From positions 1 to 34,697 of IMG/VR virus record IMGVR_UViG_3300011113_000338: DNA of 34,697 nucleotides, one strand, 5' to 3'. How positions within the stretch are numbered: position 1 is the stretch's first letter; each line of letters opens with the position of its first letter. The position numbers and the translations under genes were made by a program. The DNA comes from a virus. Shown piece by piece: positions 4,330-15,695 of this stretch. The notes under the pieces were generated by a model, which was not told where the DNA came from, did not search any database, and saw nothing but the letters and a program-made list of their open reading frames with translations.

Positions 4330-4670
4330 GGTTGGTGAGTTAAGGCAGAGTAGGAAACCTGGGGCTTGGTTAGTCGGACTATGTCTAAACTAAGTTCTCT
4401 TGTTAGCATAATCGGTCATTAAGGCGTTAGTTGTTCACAGTTCAGGTAATCGGACTTCCCTCGATTTCCCATATCCACAGTATGGTGCAAATGATTGGAC
4501 TCGAACCAATGCTTCCAGATTAGGCATCTAGTGCTCTACCAGCTGAGCTACTTTTGCTTTTGCCATTTTCTAATGACGAACTGCTACGGACTCGCGCAAG
4601 ACCTACGTGATTAAGCACACGAGCATGCTTTTCCCCAACGCTTTTCCCTCCCTGCACTAACTCACCAACC
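4330..4670. repeat. 13-bp inverted repeat flanking the tRNA interval
   Basis: GGTTGGTGAGTTA at 4330-4342 recurs as its exact reverse complement at 4658-4670, with partial pairing continuing inward (GGCAG against GTGCAG). The interval between holds the tRNA and no credible protein gene. In a leftward transcript the arms could pair and enclose the tRNA as a processing stem. A small inserted cassette is an alternative. A related GTTGGTTAGTTA occurs near 4987. Confidence 0.6.
4483..4557 (-). tRNA. tRNA-like gene, apparent anticodon CCT (Arg), atypical
   Basis: A 75-nt cloverleaf with encoded 3' ACCA. The acceptor is GCAAAAG/CATTTGC with one A-A mismatch. The D arm is GCTC/GAGC with GGTA in the loop. 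The anticodon stem is CTAGA/TCTGG and the T arm is ATTGG/CCAAT around TTCGAGT. The seven-base anticodon loop is TGCCTAA, placing CCT at 34-36 (decoding AGG, Arg). Position 33 is G instead of the near-universal U. The mismatch and G33 suggest either an unusual or a decaying tRNA. It lies leftward inside the early block. Confidence 0.75.
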
Positions 4671-4677
4671 TTGTTCA

Positions 4678-4974
4678 TTACGCCTTGTAGTCGCTCATTA
4701 CCGTCTGATCGACTTCAATCTCACACGTCCAGTTAGCCTGCTGTATTGCAGCATCTACTAGACGAAGCTGCCTAGCATGCCAGTCATACTCCGCAGTCAC
4801 TTGCGATGCTGTGAGCTTGGGAACCTGAGCGATGATGTCGTCAAGGCTCTCTGTCACCTGACGGCGCTGAGCCTTAACCTCAAACAAATTCTTATCTTGA
4901 ATGTGCTTGAGCATATCTACCTTACCTTGAAGCTCCTTACGCCTAAGAAGTGCTTCTGCTAATTTTACTTTCAT
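4678..4974 (-). CDS. DIP1984-like (septicolysin-related) helical protein
   Basis: A 98-aa almost wholly alpha-helical protein. The N-terminal pattern MKVKLAEALLRRKELQGKVDML resembles DIP1984/DUF6847 family proteins, which share 'KLAEAL..R..LQ...' and end in an 'I..AN' type helix, here VDAAIQQANWTCEIE. It is shorter than typical family members (about 150 aa), mainly between the first and last helices. Molecular role is unknown. A strong GGAGGA site lies before the ATG. Confidence 0.55.
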   Translation of the reverse strand: MKVKLAEALLRRKELQGKVDMLKHIQDKNLFEVKAQRRQVTESLDDIIAQVPKLTASQVTAEYDWHARQLRLVDAAIQQANWTCEIEVDQTVMSDYKA

Positions 4975-6118: not shown

Positions 6119-6400
6119 ATGAAATACCAAGCGAAAGACAAGTCGGACTTACACAAGAGATTGGCGTGTATTCTGCCTCAATATCCACTCATCTCTACCT
6201 TCAAGGGCAGGAGTGGCGTTTATAAGGCCGTAAACGCCGATGGTAACGTTTTTTTGGTCACCTGGACCATAGAGGAAGGTCAGGACGCAAAACGCACTGA
6301 GAGGCTTTATATGGACTATAACAAGCTGGTCAGGGAATCGGATGCTCAGGGAGCTGGCTGGTTGAAGCCTGATGAGGGCTGGAGCTTTGAAGACTATTAA
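6119..6400 (+). CDS. Hypothetical early phage protein
   Basis: A 93-aa soluble protein of unknown function with strand-rich segments (SGVYKAVNADGNVFLVTWTIEEG) and a Trp-rich acidic end (GWLKPDEGWSFEDY). It lies 8 bp after the regulator stop with a strong AGGAG site, so the two genes form a short rightward operon. The AT-rich palindromic region follows directly. Confidence 0.6.
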   Translation: MKYQAKDKSDLHKRLACILPQYPLISTFKGRSGVYKAVNADGNVFLVTWTIEEGQDAKRTERLYMDYNKLVRESDAQGAGWLKPDEGWSFEDY

Positions 6401-6600
<200 letters not shown>

Positions 6601-6640
6601 GCTGATTTATCAAGAAAATTCAAAGATTGTGATTGATACT

Positions 6641-10150: not shown

Positions 10151-10423
10151 ATGGCGTATGTTAGGATCGATCGTGATTTTCTGTTAGCAGTGAGGCGAGT
10201 GCATGAAAGAACTCCGCATCGAGGGAATCTTTATAGGGCTATACGCCTAGCGCATCGCGCAACGCAGAAACAAATAGCGCGTAAAGCTGGAATAAAAACA
10301 TATAACTGGGCGTTTCGTGAGCAGAGCAAACGCAAGTATCAGCTCGGCGAGATCTTAGCACTAAAGCAACTATGCAAGTTAGACTGGGAACAGTTTGGTC
10401 GCATCATAGAGGCATGCGCATGA
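10151..10423 (+). CDS. Xre/Cro-like helix-turn-helix regulator
   Basis: A 90-aa basic protein with a helix-turn-helix: LYRAIRLAHRATQKQIARKAGIKTYNWAFREQS, where TQKQIARKAGI is the first helix and turn, followed by QLGEILALKQLCKLDWEQFGRI. It is divergent from the leftward early block, as expected of a Cro/CI-type switch protein. No cleavage or dimerisation domain is present, so it is more Cro-like. No strong ribosome binding site precedes it. The perfect parS-like palindrome begins at the base after its stop codon. Confidence 0.7.
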   Translation: MAYVRIDRDFLLAVRRVHERTPHRGNLYRAIRLAHRATQKQIARKAGIKTYNWAFREQSKRKYQLGEILALKQLCKLDWEQFGRIIEACA

Positions 10424-10439
10424 TGTTCCACGTGGAACA
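10424..10439. promoter_or_regulatory. parS: Perfect parS-type palindrome (ParB site)
   Basis: TGTTCCACGTGGAACA is a perfect 16-bp palindrome and matches the near-universal chromosomal parS pattern (G)TTnCACGTGnAA(C) recognised by ParB. Chance occurrence of all 16 bases in a 34.6-kb genome is very unlikely. No parA or parB is present here, so the natural ligand would be host ParB. It is placed right after the Xre stop and before the late operon. Confidence 0.85.
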
Positions 10440-10449
10440 CTTAAGCATC

Positions 10450-10466
10450 TGTCCCACGGTGGGACA
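10450..10466. promoter_or_regulatory. Second, variant parS-like palindrome
   Basis: TGTCCCAC-G-GTGGGACA is a perfect inverted repeat with one central base. Each half differs from the first site by the same symmetric T-to-C change, with one extra central G. The centres of the two sites are about 26.5 bp apart. The extra central base may prevent ParB binding, so it could be a decayed or differently recognised copy. Confidence 0.6.
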
Positions 10467-10812
10467 CTATTATCAAACACGGTTTTACAATCAAGGATTA
10501 CCGGCCAAGTGGCAGTGGTATCGCGACCATCGATGCAATAGCAACTGCCGCTCGCCACGCCGTTACATCGGTAGGCAACGGAAGCTTAACCGCTTTCCAC
10601 TTAAAAGCCGGCTGTCAGGCGCGCAAGCGCCGCACAATAAAGATATATACAATGCCGAAGGCATTTCCAAAATTGTTTCCAGGCTGTCGGCTGTTATAGG
10701 CTCTATTAGGGATTTTCGTTTCTCAAACGTTTTCAAAATCATGGGACTCCCTCGGGGAGGTGGGCTCCTCTCTCTCATATAAAAATCTTTAAAAACCAAT
10801 TAAACCAAGATT
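10467..10812. other. Structured intergenic region before the late operon
   Basis: No convincing gene. Hairpins on either strand: GGCGC-GCAA-GCGCC (10618-10631, GNRA loop), AATGCC-GAA-GGCATT (10651-10665), a nested GATTTT..AAAATC with CGTTT-CTC-AAACG inside (10711-10740), and CTCCC-TCG-GGGAG (10747-10759). TATAAA at 10778-10783 is the only decent -10 and has no -35, so the late promoter may need an activator. The region could be a leader, an origin or a packaging site. Confidence 0.5.
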
Positions 10813-11256
10813 ATGACTGACAAAACAAAAGCAATAGAATTAGAAGTAGTTGAGGGACCAACGCCTAACCATATTAGGCATAAGACGACGGCAGGTTTAT
10901 CGATAATTCGTGATGAGAATGTAGCGACTCAGGTGAAGCGATTATCTGCGTTAGGCTTGAGTAAGACGTCGATAGCTGTCTTCCTTGGAATGTCACTGGA
11001 TAGTTTTAACAAGTACTACGCTAGTGACATGGTTGAGGGAGTTCACAAGATGAGTGTGAAGCTAGCGGAGTTGGCATGGGGCGTAGCTGAGTCTGGCGAT
11101 CCGAAGATGATTCAGTTTCTTTGTAAGGTGTTACTGAAGTGGACTGAGACGAGTACAGTCGAGCATGTAGGCGAGGTTAGAGCTATAGTTAGTGCTCAAC
11201 CTATGACTGAGGAGGAGTTTGAAAAGAGGTTCCTACAGAAAGACTCCGACGATTGA
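10813..11256 (+). CDS. Putative small terminase subunit
   Basis: A 147-aa protein at the head of the late operon, three genes before terL. It has an N-terminal helix-turn-helix (VKRLSALGLSKTSIAVFLGMSLDSFNKYY, about residues 41-70) followed by helices (VKLAELAWGVAESGDPKMIQFLCKVLLKW) and a flexible acidic tail (PMTEEEFEKRFLQKDSDD). This HTH-plus-oligomerisation-helix order fits small terminases that recognise the packaging site. I rely on position and architecture, not a clear sequence family. Confidence 0.7.
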   Translation: MTDKTKAIELEVVEGPTPNHIRHKTTAGLSIIRDENVATQVKRLSALGLSKTSIAVFLGMSLDSFNKYYASDMVEGVHKMSVKLAELAWGVAESGDPKMIQFLCKVLLKWTETSTVEHVGEVRAIVSAQPMTEEEFEKRFLQKDSDD

Positions 11257-11494: not shown

Positions 11495-11704
11495 ATGGGA
11501 ATTGAGCACATGGTTAAAGATGAGTCTGTAGAGAGTCAGAGGTGTCCTAGCTGTGGTCATGTAAGTACGTTAAAGGCTGGTGAGCCTACAACGGCGTATG
11601 GCTTGTATGCTGGGATTAGTGGTGAGTACTTTTACTGTCAAAATCCTAAGTGCTCTGTAGAGCGAATCTACGGCGATAATATGGTTATGGTGAGTGGGAA
11701 GTGA
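11495..11704 (+). CDS. Small zinc-ribbon protein upstream of terL
   Basis: A 69-aa protein with CPSCGHVSTL (residues 17-26) and a distal FYCQNPKCSVERIY, the two C-x2-C/C-x4-C knuckles of a zinc ribbon. It may help the terminase or bind DNA. An AAAGGA site lies about 10 nt before ATG 11495. A second in-frame ATG is at 11510. The stop overlaps the terL GTG as GTGA, so the two are translationally coupled. Confidence 0.65.
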   Translation: MGIEHMVKDESVESQRCPSCGHVSTLKAGEPTTAYGLYAGISGEYFYCQNPKCSVERIYGDNMVMVSGK

Positions 11705-13125
11705 CTGAAACACACGAATCAGTGGATACGCACGAGCGAATTGTTTGGTCACCTCAAAAAGGTCCGCAGGAGATGCTTATTCACTGTCCTTTGCCTCTTA
11801 TAGGCTATGGAGGCGCTCGAGGTGGCGGTAAAACTGATGGTGTGCTCGGTAAGTTCGCTATTAAGCAAGAACAGCTTGGCGCTGATTTTAACGCCATCTT
11901 CTTTCGTAAAGAGCTTCCCCAGGCAGATGACCTTATTGAGCGAGCTAAGCAGATTTACTTACCTCTTAAAGCTCACTGGCAGGACCAGAAAAAGCAATTC
12001 ACCTTCTTATCAGGTGGAAGATTGCGTTTTAGGCCTCTGGCTAATGATGCTGATGCTGAAAAGTATCAAGGTCAAAATTTATCCGATTGCGCTATAGAAG
12101 AAGCTGGAAACTATAGCGATCCAAGCTGCATTTGGAAGCTTTTTGGAGCTATTCGAGGAAAGGGAAACGGTCAGGTTATTCTCACTTTCAATCCTGGCGG
12201 TGTTGGTCATAGCTGGCTAAAAGAGGTGTTTGTCCGTCCAGCGCCGATGGGCAAGAAAATACTGGTTAAAAAGTTACCTACCGGTAAGGAAATTAAGTAC
12301 ATTTACATACCGAGTAGAGTTTACGATAACAAAATCCTACTTGCTCAAGATCCGGAGTACATTAACCGCTTGCACATGGTAGGCAGTCCGGAGCTGGTGC
12401 GAGCTTGGCTAGAAGGAGACTTTGAAATCCATGAAGGTAGTTACTTTCCTGAGTTTAGCTCTAAACATATCGTTGCTCCTTTTAACATCCCTAAACACTG
12501 GCCCCGTTACCTTGGTTATGACTGGGGCTATCGCTCTCCTTTTGCTGCTGTCTGGGGCGCTGTTAGTTCTGGACGTGATGACCGAGGTAATGAAGTACCG
12601 TATCCTAAAGGAGCAATTGTCGTATATCGAGAGATGTGGGGAAAAGGAGTTGATAACGTCGAACAGGCCAACAGAATCGCATCTGTTTCAGTAGGCGAAA
12701 ATCCCATTGCTGTGGCTGATCCTAGCATCTTTAGCCATGAGGGAGGTCCCAGCATTAACGACCAATTCACTGCCGTCTTTGCCAAGTACAAGCATCCTGC
12801 GTTTAGAGCTGCAGATAACGACCGATTGTCTGGCTGGGCGCAAATTAGACAGCGCTTGGTAGGCAAGGAGCCTCTCCTATACATTTTCGCTACTTGCCCA
12901 TACCTTATAGAAACTTTACCATCCTTAACGATAGACAAGCGCAGGCCAGAAGATTTGGATACGAGCGGAAACGATCATGCCGCAGATGCCTTACGTTATA
13001 TGTGTAAAGCAAGGCTTATAGATGCCAAGTGGGAGCAGCCAAAAGAGGTGTTTAATAAAGGAATTATTAAGTTACAGAGTTATATAGCACAAGTTAGGTC
13101 ACAACAAGGCAGAGCTAGAATATGA
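11701..13125 (+). CDS. terL: Terminase large subunit (packaging ATPase/nuclease)
   Basis: A 474-aa motor that pumps DNA into the prohead and cuts the concatemer. The ATPase domain has Walker A GGARGGGKT (residues 37-45), Walker B CAIEE (130-134) and the coupling motif ILTFNPGG (160-167). The RNase H-like nuclease has Asp274 in YDWGYRSP, Asp340 in VADPS, and Asp425/Asp429 in NDHAADALRY. GTG is the start, overlapping the upstream stop. The last bases overlap the portal ATG as ATGA. The length is normal for headful-type podovirus terminases. Confidence 0.95.
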   Translation: MTETHESVDTHERIVWSPQKGPQEMLIHCPLPLIGYGGARGGGKTDGVLGKFAIKQEQLGADFNAIFFRKELPQADDLIERAKQIYLPLKAHWQDQKKQFTFLSGGRLRFRPLANDADAEKYQGQNLSDCAIEEAGNYSDPSCIWKLFGAIRGKGNGQVILTFNPGGVGHSWLKEVFVRPAPMGKKILVKKLPTGKEIKYIYIPSRVYDNKILLAQDPEYINRLHMVGSPELVRAWLEGDFEIHEGSYFPEFSSKHIVAPFNIPKHWPRYLGYDWGYRSPFAAVWGAVSSGRDDRGNEVPYPKGAIVVYREMWGKGVDNVEQANRIASVSVGENPIAVADPSIFSHEGGPSINDQFTAVFAKYKHPAFRAADNDRLSGWAQIRQRLVGKEPLLYIFATCPYLIETLPSLTIDKRRPEDLDTSGNDHAADALRYMCKARLIDAKWEQPKEVFNKGIIKLQSYIAQVRSQQGRARI

Positions 13126-15695
13126 AAATTGCGCCACTATCACAAAAGTACTCGCCTAGATGGTGGAAAAGTCAGATTACTGACGCAGAAGAGCGCAGAA
13201 AGAAGTTCATCGAGTACGCAGAAGAGTCAATCCGAGTTTATAACGCTCAAAAGCAGGTTGGAGTTCTAAACGATGTAGAGCGTCGTCTTAACGTTTGGTG
13301 GTACGTTAATAATACTCTCCTCCCTGCTTACTTTTCCTCCACTCCAAAGGCTGAAGTAAACCTAAGAAAGCGAACTGGTGGCTTAGCTGCTGAGTTCGGT
13401 AGCGTTATTCTCGAGCGAAACATTCAGTACGCTATGGATGTTCACTTTGACTTTGACATTCTAGGCTATAACGCTGCGATGCAGCTCTTACTTACCGGCC
13501 AGTCCGTCCTGTGGGCTAGGTACGTGCCTAAAATCGAAACTATCCTTCAGGAAATCGCTCTAATTAAAGATCCAAGCGGTCTGCTTATCGACGGGGAGGG
13601 CAAACCTTATGATGGGGATACGAGCAATCTTCGCGGTGGCCCTGGCGGTATTATGCTTAGTAGCCTTGAAGTTGAGCAAAAGACTGACGAAAAGGCGATT
13701 CTTGAGGTGGTTCAGTATTCTGACTACTACTGCTCAGACGCACGAAACGAGCAAGAAATCGAATGGCAGGCGCGCCGTGCCTTCCTGGATAGGGCCGAAG
13801 CAGAGGAGAAGTTTGGCAAGGAAATCGCCAAAAACCTAAAGTATGATTCCTATCCTGAAGTCGTTAAGAAGGATATTGCTCGCAAAGATGACAAGTTCGA
13901 AGGCAAGGCAGAAATTTACGAGGTTTGGTGCCAAGCTACAGAGAAAGTCTACTGGATGCAAAAAGGTGGCGATAAGTCAGTTATAGAGACTTCAGAGCCT
14001 CCAACTAAATTTGATAGATTCTATCCTTGCTCCGTCATTCGGCAGACCGCAGATCCTGATTCTGTTATTCCAGTGTCTGACTACGCTCATGTTAAGGACC
14101 AAATTCTCGAGGTGGAGCGCCTTACAACTCGTATCCATGCTGTTACTCAGGCTATCCGCACTAACCAGCTTTATGATGCCACTTTAGGCAACCAGGTAGA
14201 GCAGCTCTTTACCGGCGATTTAAAGCTTATCCCAACAACTAACTGGCCAAGCTATAAGCAGCGTGGCGGCCTCGCTAACGGCATTGAGGGCGTTAATATC
14301 GAGCCATACATCAACGCTCTAAACGTGCTTCAGGGAGCCAGAGAGAAGGCCTTACAGCAGTTATACGAAACACTAAAGGTGTCTGACCTGCTTCGTGGCA
14401 CATCAGAACAATACAAGAGTGCTACGGCTAATAGACTTGAAAATCAGTGGTCCTCTCTTGGCCTAATCGTTCGTCAGAACATGTTTGCCAAGTTCATTTC
14501 TGATGCCATTTCCAACTTAGGCACAATCATCTGCGAGCATTTCGATGAAGCAAGAATCTTTGAGGTTGGCGACGCCGACGAGCTTATCTATCCAGCAATC
14601 TTTGTCCCTCAACCTCCTCCCCCACCACCACCTGCGGAAGGTATGGAAAACATGCCTCCACCTCCGCCTCCTCAAATGCCGCAACCAGAAGAAATGCTAG
14701 CGCAAATGAAGCAGCAGATTATGCAGCTCTTGCGTGATCCAAAGCTTCGTTGCTACCGCATTCAGATTGCGTCTGACTCTATGGTCGCTCTAGACCAAGC
14801 TCAGCAGCAGCAGGAGGGCCAGGCTCTTATCGGTGCAGCAGGACAGTTCTTTGACCAAATGAGAGGCTTGGTAGAGCAGTATCCTCCGCTACTCGAGTTT
14901 AGTATCGGCTTTTTCCAAAACATGATGAAGCGTTACAAGGGAGGCAAGGAGCTGGATGGATTATTTACTAAGGCTATGCAGCAAATTGGCGAGATTGCTA
15001 AGGCGAAAGAGGAGGCAGCTAAACAACCGCCTCCACCTGATCCAGTCATGCAAGAAATGCAGGCCAGGATGCAAATTGCACAAATAGAGTCGCAGACAAG
15101 ACTGCAGCAAGCTCAAATGGAAGCTCAAGACAAGGCGATGAAGAATCAGCTTGAGATGCAAAACCAGCAGCTTAAAATGCAGCGTGACCAACTCGAGGCG
15201 CAGCTCTCTGTTCAAGACCAGCAGTTTAAAGAGTTTATCGAGCAGCAAAAGCTTGGTATTGCTCAACAAGAAGTGCAGATTAAGGCGCAGAGCGTTCAGG
15301 TTGACATGCTTAAAGTTCAGTCTACCGCTCAAAGCGAGGCTGATAAGGCTATCATCAAGCAGGAAAGCTCGCAGATGCAGCACATCCTTGAGATTCAAAA
15401 GCTTGAGCTTGAGCAAATGCGTATGCGGTTATCTGAGTCTGAAAAGCTTATGGAAGAACGTAGACTTGCTTCAGAGCAGCAGTTAGAGCGTATTAGATTA
15501 CAAATGGATAGCATTAACCAATCGCCTAAGATTATGAGTATGGGCGGTATGAGTGGTCGAAAAAAGTCAGGAAAAATAGTTACTGACGAGAACGGCAATC
15601 CAACTGCTATTGAGATAACAGAACAACCAGAAGTTAAAGTACAGCGCATAACACTTGATGAAGAAGGCAATCCTTCAGGGATTGAGTTAGAATAA
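13122..15695 (+). CDS. Portal protein with long Pro/Gln-rich C-terminal extension
   Basis: An 857-aa portal that forms the dodecameric DNA channel. The N-terminal 480 residues have portal-type features (WWKSQITDAEERRKKFIEYA, WWYVNNTLLPAYFSSTPKAEVN, and the DLLRGTSEQYKSATANRLENQW segment near the channel helices). After it come two poly-Pro stretches (about residues 499-507 and 514-522). A long Gln/Met-rich coiled coil follows (about 610-800) and then a short basic-acidic tail. The extension recalls the P22 portal barrel, but is unusually Gln/Pro-rich. The start is ATGA-coupled to terL. Confidence 0.9.
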   Translation: MKIAPLSQKYSPRWWKSQITDAEERRKKFIEYAEESIRVYNAQKQVGVLNDVERRLNVWWYVNNTLLPAYFSSTPKAEVNLRKRTGGLAAEFGSVILERNIQYAMDVHFDFDILGYNAAMQLLLTGQSVLWARYVPKIETILQEIALIKDPSGLLIDGEGKPYDGDTSNLRGGPGGIMLSSLEVEQKTDEKAILEVVQYSDYYCSDARNEQEIEWQARRAFLDRAEAEEKFGKEIAKNLKYDSYPEVVKKDIARKDDKFEGKAEIYEVWCQATEKVYWMQKGGDKSVIETSEPPTKFDRFYPCSVIRQTADPDSVIPVSDYAHVKDQILEVERLTTRIHAVTQAIRTNQLYDATLGNQVEQLFTGDLKLIPTTNWPSYKQRGGLANGIEGVNIEPYINALNVLQGAREKALQQLYETLKVSDLLRGTSEQYKSATANRLENQWSSLGLIVRQNMFAKFISDAISNLGTIICEHFDEARIFEVGDADELIYPAIFVPQPPPPPPPAEGMENMPPPPPPQMPQPEEMLAQMKQQIMQLLRDPKLRCYRIQIASDSMVALDQAQQQQEGQALIGAAGQFFDQMRGLVEQYPPLLEFSIGFFQNMMKRYKGGKELDGLFTKAMQQIGEIAKAKEEAAKQPPPPDPVMQEMQARMQIAQIESQTRLQQAQMEAQDKAMKNQLEMQNQQLKMQRDQLEAQLSVQDQQFKEFIEQQKLGIAQQEVQIKAQSVQVDMLKVQSTAQSEADKAIIKQESSQMQHILEIQKLELEQMRMRLSESEKLMEERRLASEQQLERIRLQMDSINQSPKIMSMGGMSGRKKSGKIVTDENGNPTAIEITEQPEVKVQRITLDEEGNPSGIELE

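Follow-up and report, generated by a model that had tools for sequence, protein, structure and literature searches.

The Locus and Its Surroundings

We analyzed a 34.7-kb virus record (34,697 nt, hereafter the window) with terminase, portal, capsid, RecT, and GP88 genes. Read directly, its sequence carries a perfect inverted repeat, TGTTCCACGTGGAACA (10424-10439), which begins at the base after the TGA stop (10421-10423) of a small Xre-like gene, and ten bases beyond it a second one, TGTCCCACGGTGGGACA (10450-10466), hereafter the twin; both have 8-bp arms, with a spacer of 0 in the former and of 1 in the latter (table 1). The first agrees at all positions (0 mismatches) with the 16-bp chromosomal-type parS palindrome with central CG, TGTTNCACGTGNAACA, and is identical to the Pseudomonas chromosomal parS (PMC5450999). 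The site lies at the point where transcription turns from the early genes on the minus strand to the packaging operon, and the cumulative GC skew has its minimum close by. An open reading frame of 136 aa (10372-10782) overlaps the non-coding stretch and reads through it, with no support as a gene. The Xre-like protein gives weak matches to HTH_3 and Xre-like HTH domains, in its relatives only, and HipB and P22 C2 are among its weak PDB profile matches.

Table 1. Coordinates of the genes and elements around the parS site of the window
Feature	Position	Strand	Remarks
Small Xre/Cro-like HTH protein, 90 aa	10151..10423	+	Immediately precedes the element; conserved across the phage family
Non-coding stretch, Xre-like gene to packaging operon	10424..10812	.	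Other inverted repeats (types A, B, C) occupy its first ~65 bp in relatives
parS	10424..10439	.	Exact 16-bp chromosomal ParB site, Pseudomonas type (TGTTCCACGTGGAACA)
Spacer cttaagcatc, 10 bp	10440..10449	.	Sequence read directly
Companion palindrome (twin), TGTCCCAC-G-GTGGGACA, 17 bp	10450..10466	.	Not a predicted ParB site; identical copies adjoin parS in contigs L214 and L233
Putative small terminase subunit, gene 1 of packaging/late operon	10813..11256	+	Inferred from position; weak match to phrog_12540, which does not give the function
Terminase large subunit	11701..13125	+	phrog_2, 1.3e-41
Portal protein	13122..15695	+	phrog_12082, 3.2e-102

The 16-mer is the sole position in the 34,697 nt to match parS at up to 3 mismatches, and base composition gives an expectation of 7.6e-6 exact copies in the window. 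Two palindromes with arms of 8 and at most 20 bp apart occurred in 1 of 100 simulated windows, related half-sites not being required. Several parS or half-parS sites are common among the example phages discussed below, although they may not define the class; the window has one exact parS and no half-parS cluster beside it. Compared with the chromosomal site of Pseudomonas, the window shares the same 16-mer and its central CG, yet its copy is phage-borne, single, and unlinked to parAB or oriC.

A domain search of the window record, which is linear and may be incomplete, recovered neither ParB_N (PF02195) nor the ParA-type AAA_31 domain (PF13614); the same ParB_N search works on viral records, having recovered ParB domains in phage BUCTxx99. 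A phage-encoded ParABS system, with parA and parB genes, was accordingly not found, and the window combines a genuine phage genome (terminase, portal, and capsid), an exact site, and no detected parA or parB, the features of a stand-alone phage parS. A preliminary description of this DNA had reported just this arrangement, namely, a perfect parS directly after the Xre-like stop, a variant twin ten bases on with one symmetric base change and an added central G, and no ParA or ParB, and in these respects it holds. Its suggestion of a plasmid-like prophage does not: no replication or partition gene was recognized in the window, the PF00589 integrase is absent from 34 records including the window, and lysogeny is without support.

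Searches gave no prophage relatives for host assignment among the genome contigs searched, no DNA match of the window region to isolate phages, and, with Rfam, a tRNA only. A tRNA-Arg (CCT) lies among the early genes on the minus strand (4483-4557). A likely replication origin is at 6400-6610, a very AT-rich, non-coding segment with nested palindromes (ATGATCATATGATCAT, TAATTAGATCTAATTA, and ATATGCATAATATGCATAT), a TA run of 28 bp, and recurrent GATC and ATGCAT motifs. A 98-aa open reading frame at 4678-4974 is identical over 96 aligned residues (100%) to one in the relative L167 (3215-3502); since the other proteins of that relative are far more diverged and the frame is located elsewhere, this points to a mobile gene that was exchanged recently.

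The Twin, Probably a Separate Element

The twin differs from parS by the changes T4C/A13G plus an inserted central base, and is 17 bp long. In SPR assays of chromosomal parS, symmetrical changes abolish binding except at positions 1-16 and 5-12 (PMC5450999). A chromosomal parS has 16-bp spacing, a central CG, and variation at those two position pairs only, and the twin departs from this pattern; with position 4-13 changed and a central base added, it should not be a ParB site, contrary to the preliminary description, which had taken it for a variant of such a site. Its heptamer GTCCCAC is not enriched near viral parS. Nor did we retain it as a chromosomal site, as it occurs in 0 of 398 genomes of one phylum and in 0 of 10 other genomes; exact parS is present in 4 of 40 genomes of the phylum surveyed for the twin.

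In viral contigs the twin was found in 30 stretches, and in several of these it is multicopy and sits inside longer hairpins with complementary flanks. The form TGTCCCACNGTGGGACA is repeated up to ten times per stretch (L212, L215, L218, L220, L226, L234, and L235), with hairpin flanks that differ and yet stay complementary (ggggag..ctcccc, gatggg..cccatc), as in a multicopy phage hairpin element. An identical twin lies 22 bp from an exact parS in L214, upstream of terminase and portal genes, with a third, related palindrome (TGTTCCAgtTGGAACA) between the two; another lies 4 bp from a parS with one end base changed in L233, upstream of a polymerase processivity factor (clamp) gene. Neither contig has protein similarity to the window in the stretches compared. 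Three pairings among ~30 twins are most unlikely by chance, and thus we take the twin to be a real companion of parS; as read from these contigs, parS plus twin is a recurrent composite.

The Same Spot in Related Phages

Relatives of the window were collected by portal protein (80 loci), by Xre-like protein (56 loci), and as 38 whole family records. The parS 16-mer is absent at the portal and the Xre-like loci alike, and among the whole records only that of L159 has a parS site at 1 mismatch, elsewhere in its genome. The preliminary description had named loss of the palindrome in close relatives as grounds for refutation, and this is in part what we see, the relatives found being without the site; the nearest of them, however, show only ~45% identity in the neighboring Xre-like protein, and nearer records may lie outside the set searched. 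Conservation would be expected of a stand-alone phage parS but does not define it.

At the position of the window parS, in the ~65 bp that follow the Xre-like gene, relatives carry other inverted-repeat elements. Type A (14 of 63 loci; e.g. L155, L257, and L270) spans 28 bp and consists of the inverted repeat TGACYGATAA-N6-TTATCGGTCA, whose center varies; type B (39 of 63; e.g. L125, L252, and L259) is a 34-bp element, TTACYTWACKAGAANYAGAAAACTARTWARSTAA, found in either orientation; type C is that of the five nearest relatives. Individually these repeats are only weakly significant, and as a statistically strong feature of each relative they fail: types A and B are recognizable by alignment only. 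Types A and B swap between phages with near-identical Xre-like or TerS-like proteins (L125/L155, L257/L283), and for this reason neither neighbor is a likely reader of the elements. Type A resembles the dif sites of XerCD in its 11-6-11 layout, invariant ATAA/TTAT, and variable center. As a dif-like site it was rejected, center plus arms occurring in only 22 scattered genomes, about as expected by chance, with no PF00589 in 34 records. Overall, the spot after xre has the look of a docking site whose cis-elements can be exchanged, and parS plus twin would be the window's version.

Stand-Alone parS Sites across Viruses

The exact parS 16-mer occurs in at least 120 IMG/VR viral stretches, against 10 for a control palindrome of the same composition (TGTCTCACGTGAGACA), an excess of at least 12-fold in viral contigs; five of the ten control copies belong to one homologous gene. 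In isolate phages a parS 30-mer matches 158 records and a control 30-mer 8, and here it is the ratio that counts and not the number, since palindromes were scored on both strands and some records are host contamination. Among the matches listed, 50 of 127 viral parS copies are intergenic, against 1 of 10 for the control. Within 150 bp of viral parS, the half-parS GTTYCAC reaches 4.7 times the density that it has in the remainder of those contigs, and six similar 7-mers show no enrichment there; the heptamers GTTCCAC and GTTTCAC are bound in vivo by the ParB of Pseudomonas aeruginosa (PMC10419367). ParB_N was found in 0 of 50 other parS-bearing viral records tested.

Contamination does account for some of the viral matches. 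The genes adjoining intergenic viral parS are, however, mainly of phage type, capsid and terminase being the commonest, and because of these neighbors we regard the contigs as real phages. One phage-filed contig in INPHARED, CAKLQF020000012.1 (Acinetobacter phage MD-2021a), carries mutY and lytM-type genes and is probably bacterial chromosome. Elsewhere (L012, L019, L025, L028, L041, L042, L046, L120, and others) parS often lies within phage open reading frames in the frame VPRGT, in many cases in linkers of apparently low complexity, as though placed where coding tolerates it. In five phage contigs that are distant relatives of pelagiphages (L049, L071, L099, L108, and L109), TGTTCCACGTGGAACA and TGTTTCACGTGAAACA stand ~10 bp apart. 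Taken together with the isolates described next, sequence comparison argues strongly that parS on phages without ParB is in general under selection.

Among isolates, phi29 has four exact parS sites (TGTTTCACGTGGAACA), Pseudomonas phage SYP five plus one near-match, Pseudomonas phage XD2 three plus one near-match, Pseudomonas phage M5.1 three near-matches, and a 5-kb microvirus two sites, all without ParB_N; of the isolates checked only BUCTxx99 has that domain. KPP25 is a further isolate with parS, and mycobacteriophage Fortunato has a near-match. Stenotrophomonas phage BUCT555 (MW291508.1) is a distant relative of the window (capsid 32%, portal 27%) in which ParB_N was likewise not found. It has five parS-like sites at up to 2 mismatches (37884, 39380, 78, 472, and 2370), which fall within ~4 kb if the genome ends are joined, in an early region without annotated function; 40 runs of simulation gave no site of this kind. 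At least two of these sites are inside open reading frames, encoding LFHVE. Thus BUCT555 resembles the window in its related capsid and portal, its parS-like sites, and its lack of ParB_N, and differs in having five clustered sites, some within open reading frames, and no twin.

Relation to Known Systems

Some phages, e.g. P1 and N15, carry their own partition genes; like the window they have a centromere on phage DNA, whereas in the window no parA or parB was found. Two other systems are closer. Entrapment of the phi29 genome in the spore has been reported to use the host Spo0J (Meijer et al. 2005, as cited in PMC9437464). This virulent phage shares with the window an exact stand-alone parS and the lack of ParB_N, but its four sites are dispersed over 19 kb and its host sporulates, whereas the window has one parS and a non-parS companion. 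The parS-like sites of SGI1 hijack the ParABS of IncC plasmids (PMC10954446), so that this mobile element, which has parS mimics but lacks parAB, uses the ParB of another replicon for its own stability; SGI1, however, is an integrative mobilizable element, deals with a plasmid-type ParB, and is experimentally proven.

The central proposal of the preliminary description, that a phage lacking parA and parB carries a host-type parS on its own, finds comparative support in the enrichment in ParB-less phages, the half-parS clustering, and BUCT555. The novelty that it had suggested for such a strategy does not: given phi29, with four exact parS and no ParB_N, and SGI1, which does the like with plasmid parABS, a stand-alone phage parS is not new in kind. 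In the literature searched, with incomplete coverage, we found no survey of these sites. What is of interest here is the broader pattern of parS in phages and the recurrent pairing of parS with the twin.

What Reads the Two Palindromes?

We consider it more probable than not that the 16-mer is a functional stand-alone parS loaded by host ParB, which would tie the phage genome to the segregation apparatus of its host. Several readings compete with this. The two palindromes may be an operator pair for one dimeric regulator, of the phage or its host, acting on the downstream packaging operon, the parS match being incidental. That is a clearly less probable account, but one to be taken seriously, as the half-sites are related (TGTTCCAC and TGTCCCAC), the pair stands between a regulator gene and a late operon where relatives have other inverted repeats, and L214 adds a third related palindrome between twin and parS. 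It leaves the excess of exact parS among phages unexplained, and it has to face the different sequences that the closest Xre-like relatives carry there, the fact that each palindrome occurs only once in the window, xre promoter region included, and the swapping of element types between near-identical Xre- and TerS-like proteins, which makes neither neighbor an obvious reader. The Xre-like protein in particular was rejected as the one that binds: the motif does not recur in its promoter region, a shared-word test in the window was not significant, and the types do not follow Xre. 

The element may act as RNA, with the xre mRNA carrying at its 3' end a pair of neighboring hairpins (stems of 6-7 bp) for stability, processing, or attenuation. 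Both palindromes do fold as hairpins, and in other phages the twin core sits in longer hairpins with complementary flanks, but in the window the flanks are not complementary, folding is not unusual (z -1.45), no Rfam family is found there, and the GC-rich hairpin with T-tract of an intrinsic terminator is lacking, there being no T-tract and no terminator-like site; a hairpin, moreover, needs no 16-bp identity to parS, and we hold this to be improbable. Recognition of the inverted repeats by the terminase, as a pac/cos element upstream of the TerS-like gene, is more doubtful still. It would suit the location directly ahead of the packaging operon, which the window shares with its relatives and L214, but not the pair in L233, which precedes a polymerase clamp gene, nor L257 and L283, whose TerS-like proteins are 89% identical and whose elements are of type A and type B. 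Least credible of all is a chance match, picked from many windows examined for famous motifs: the window was chosen after the fact and the site is missing in relatives, yet the expectation is 8e-6 per window, an identical twin stands beside parS in two unrelated contigs, and viral contigs show the excess of at least 12-fold.

A Model for the Use of Host ParB

If the 16-mer is a functional parS, the chromosomal ParB of the host, a CTP-dependent clamp, would load at 10424-10439 during infection and slide onto the flanking phage DNA, as established ParB biochemistry leads us to infer, and would thereby link the phage DNA to the ParA/SMC machinery of host segregation. By analogy with phi29, the phage would most likely benefit in that its genomes, while unreplicated or replicating slowly, are positioned or inherited where lysis is delayed, i.e. 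in slow-growing or dividing cells, in a carrier or deferred-lysis state such as that described for phi29 and Spo0J. The twin would be a separate element, which, as a guess, may bind another protein or halt the sliding of ParB into adjacent genes. With a single site on each genome, titration of ParB is less likely as long as copy number is not high.

Some observations run against this model. The window has a single parS without a half-parS cluster, unlike phi29 and BUCT555, and its relatives are without the site. Given the different inverted repeats that relatives carry at this position, the palindrome could be another version of the family element with a non-ParB reader, and the half-sites of twin and parS, which match at 7 of 8 bases, would suit one shared non-ParB protein.

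A bolder version, which we put forward as an unlikely speculation, would make of parS and TGTCCCACGGTGGGACA a two-part docking element used by unrelated phages: ParB would load at parS, and a second factor at the twin would stop or position the clamps, so that ParB would coat one side of the genome and couple late-gene expression or genome placement to the segregation cycle of the host. It would then be one design in a wide exploitation of host ParB by phages lacking parAB, most of which has yet to be described.

Should host ParB load on the DNA of phages without parAB, phages across many hosts would tap the bacterial centromere machinery, gaining positioning, inheritance, or silencing for 16 bp. 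The case of phi29 and Spo0J would then become a general strategy, and a readily testable one, with phi29, KPP25, BUCT555, and Fortunato available as bench isolates, and the recurrent pairing of parS with the twin points to a second factor.
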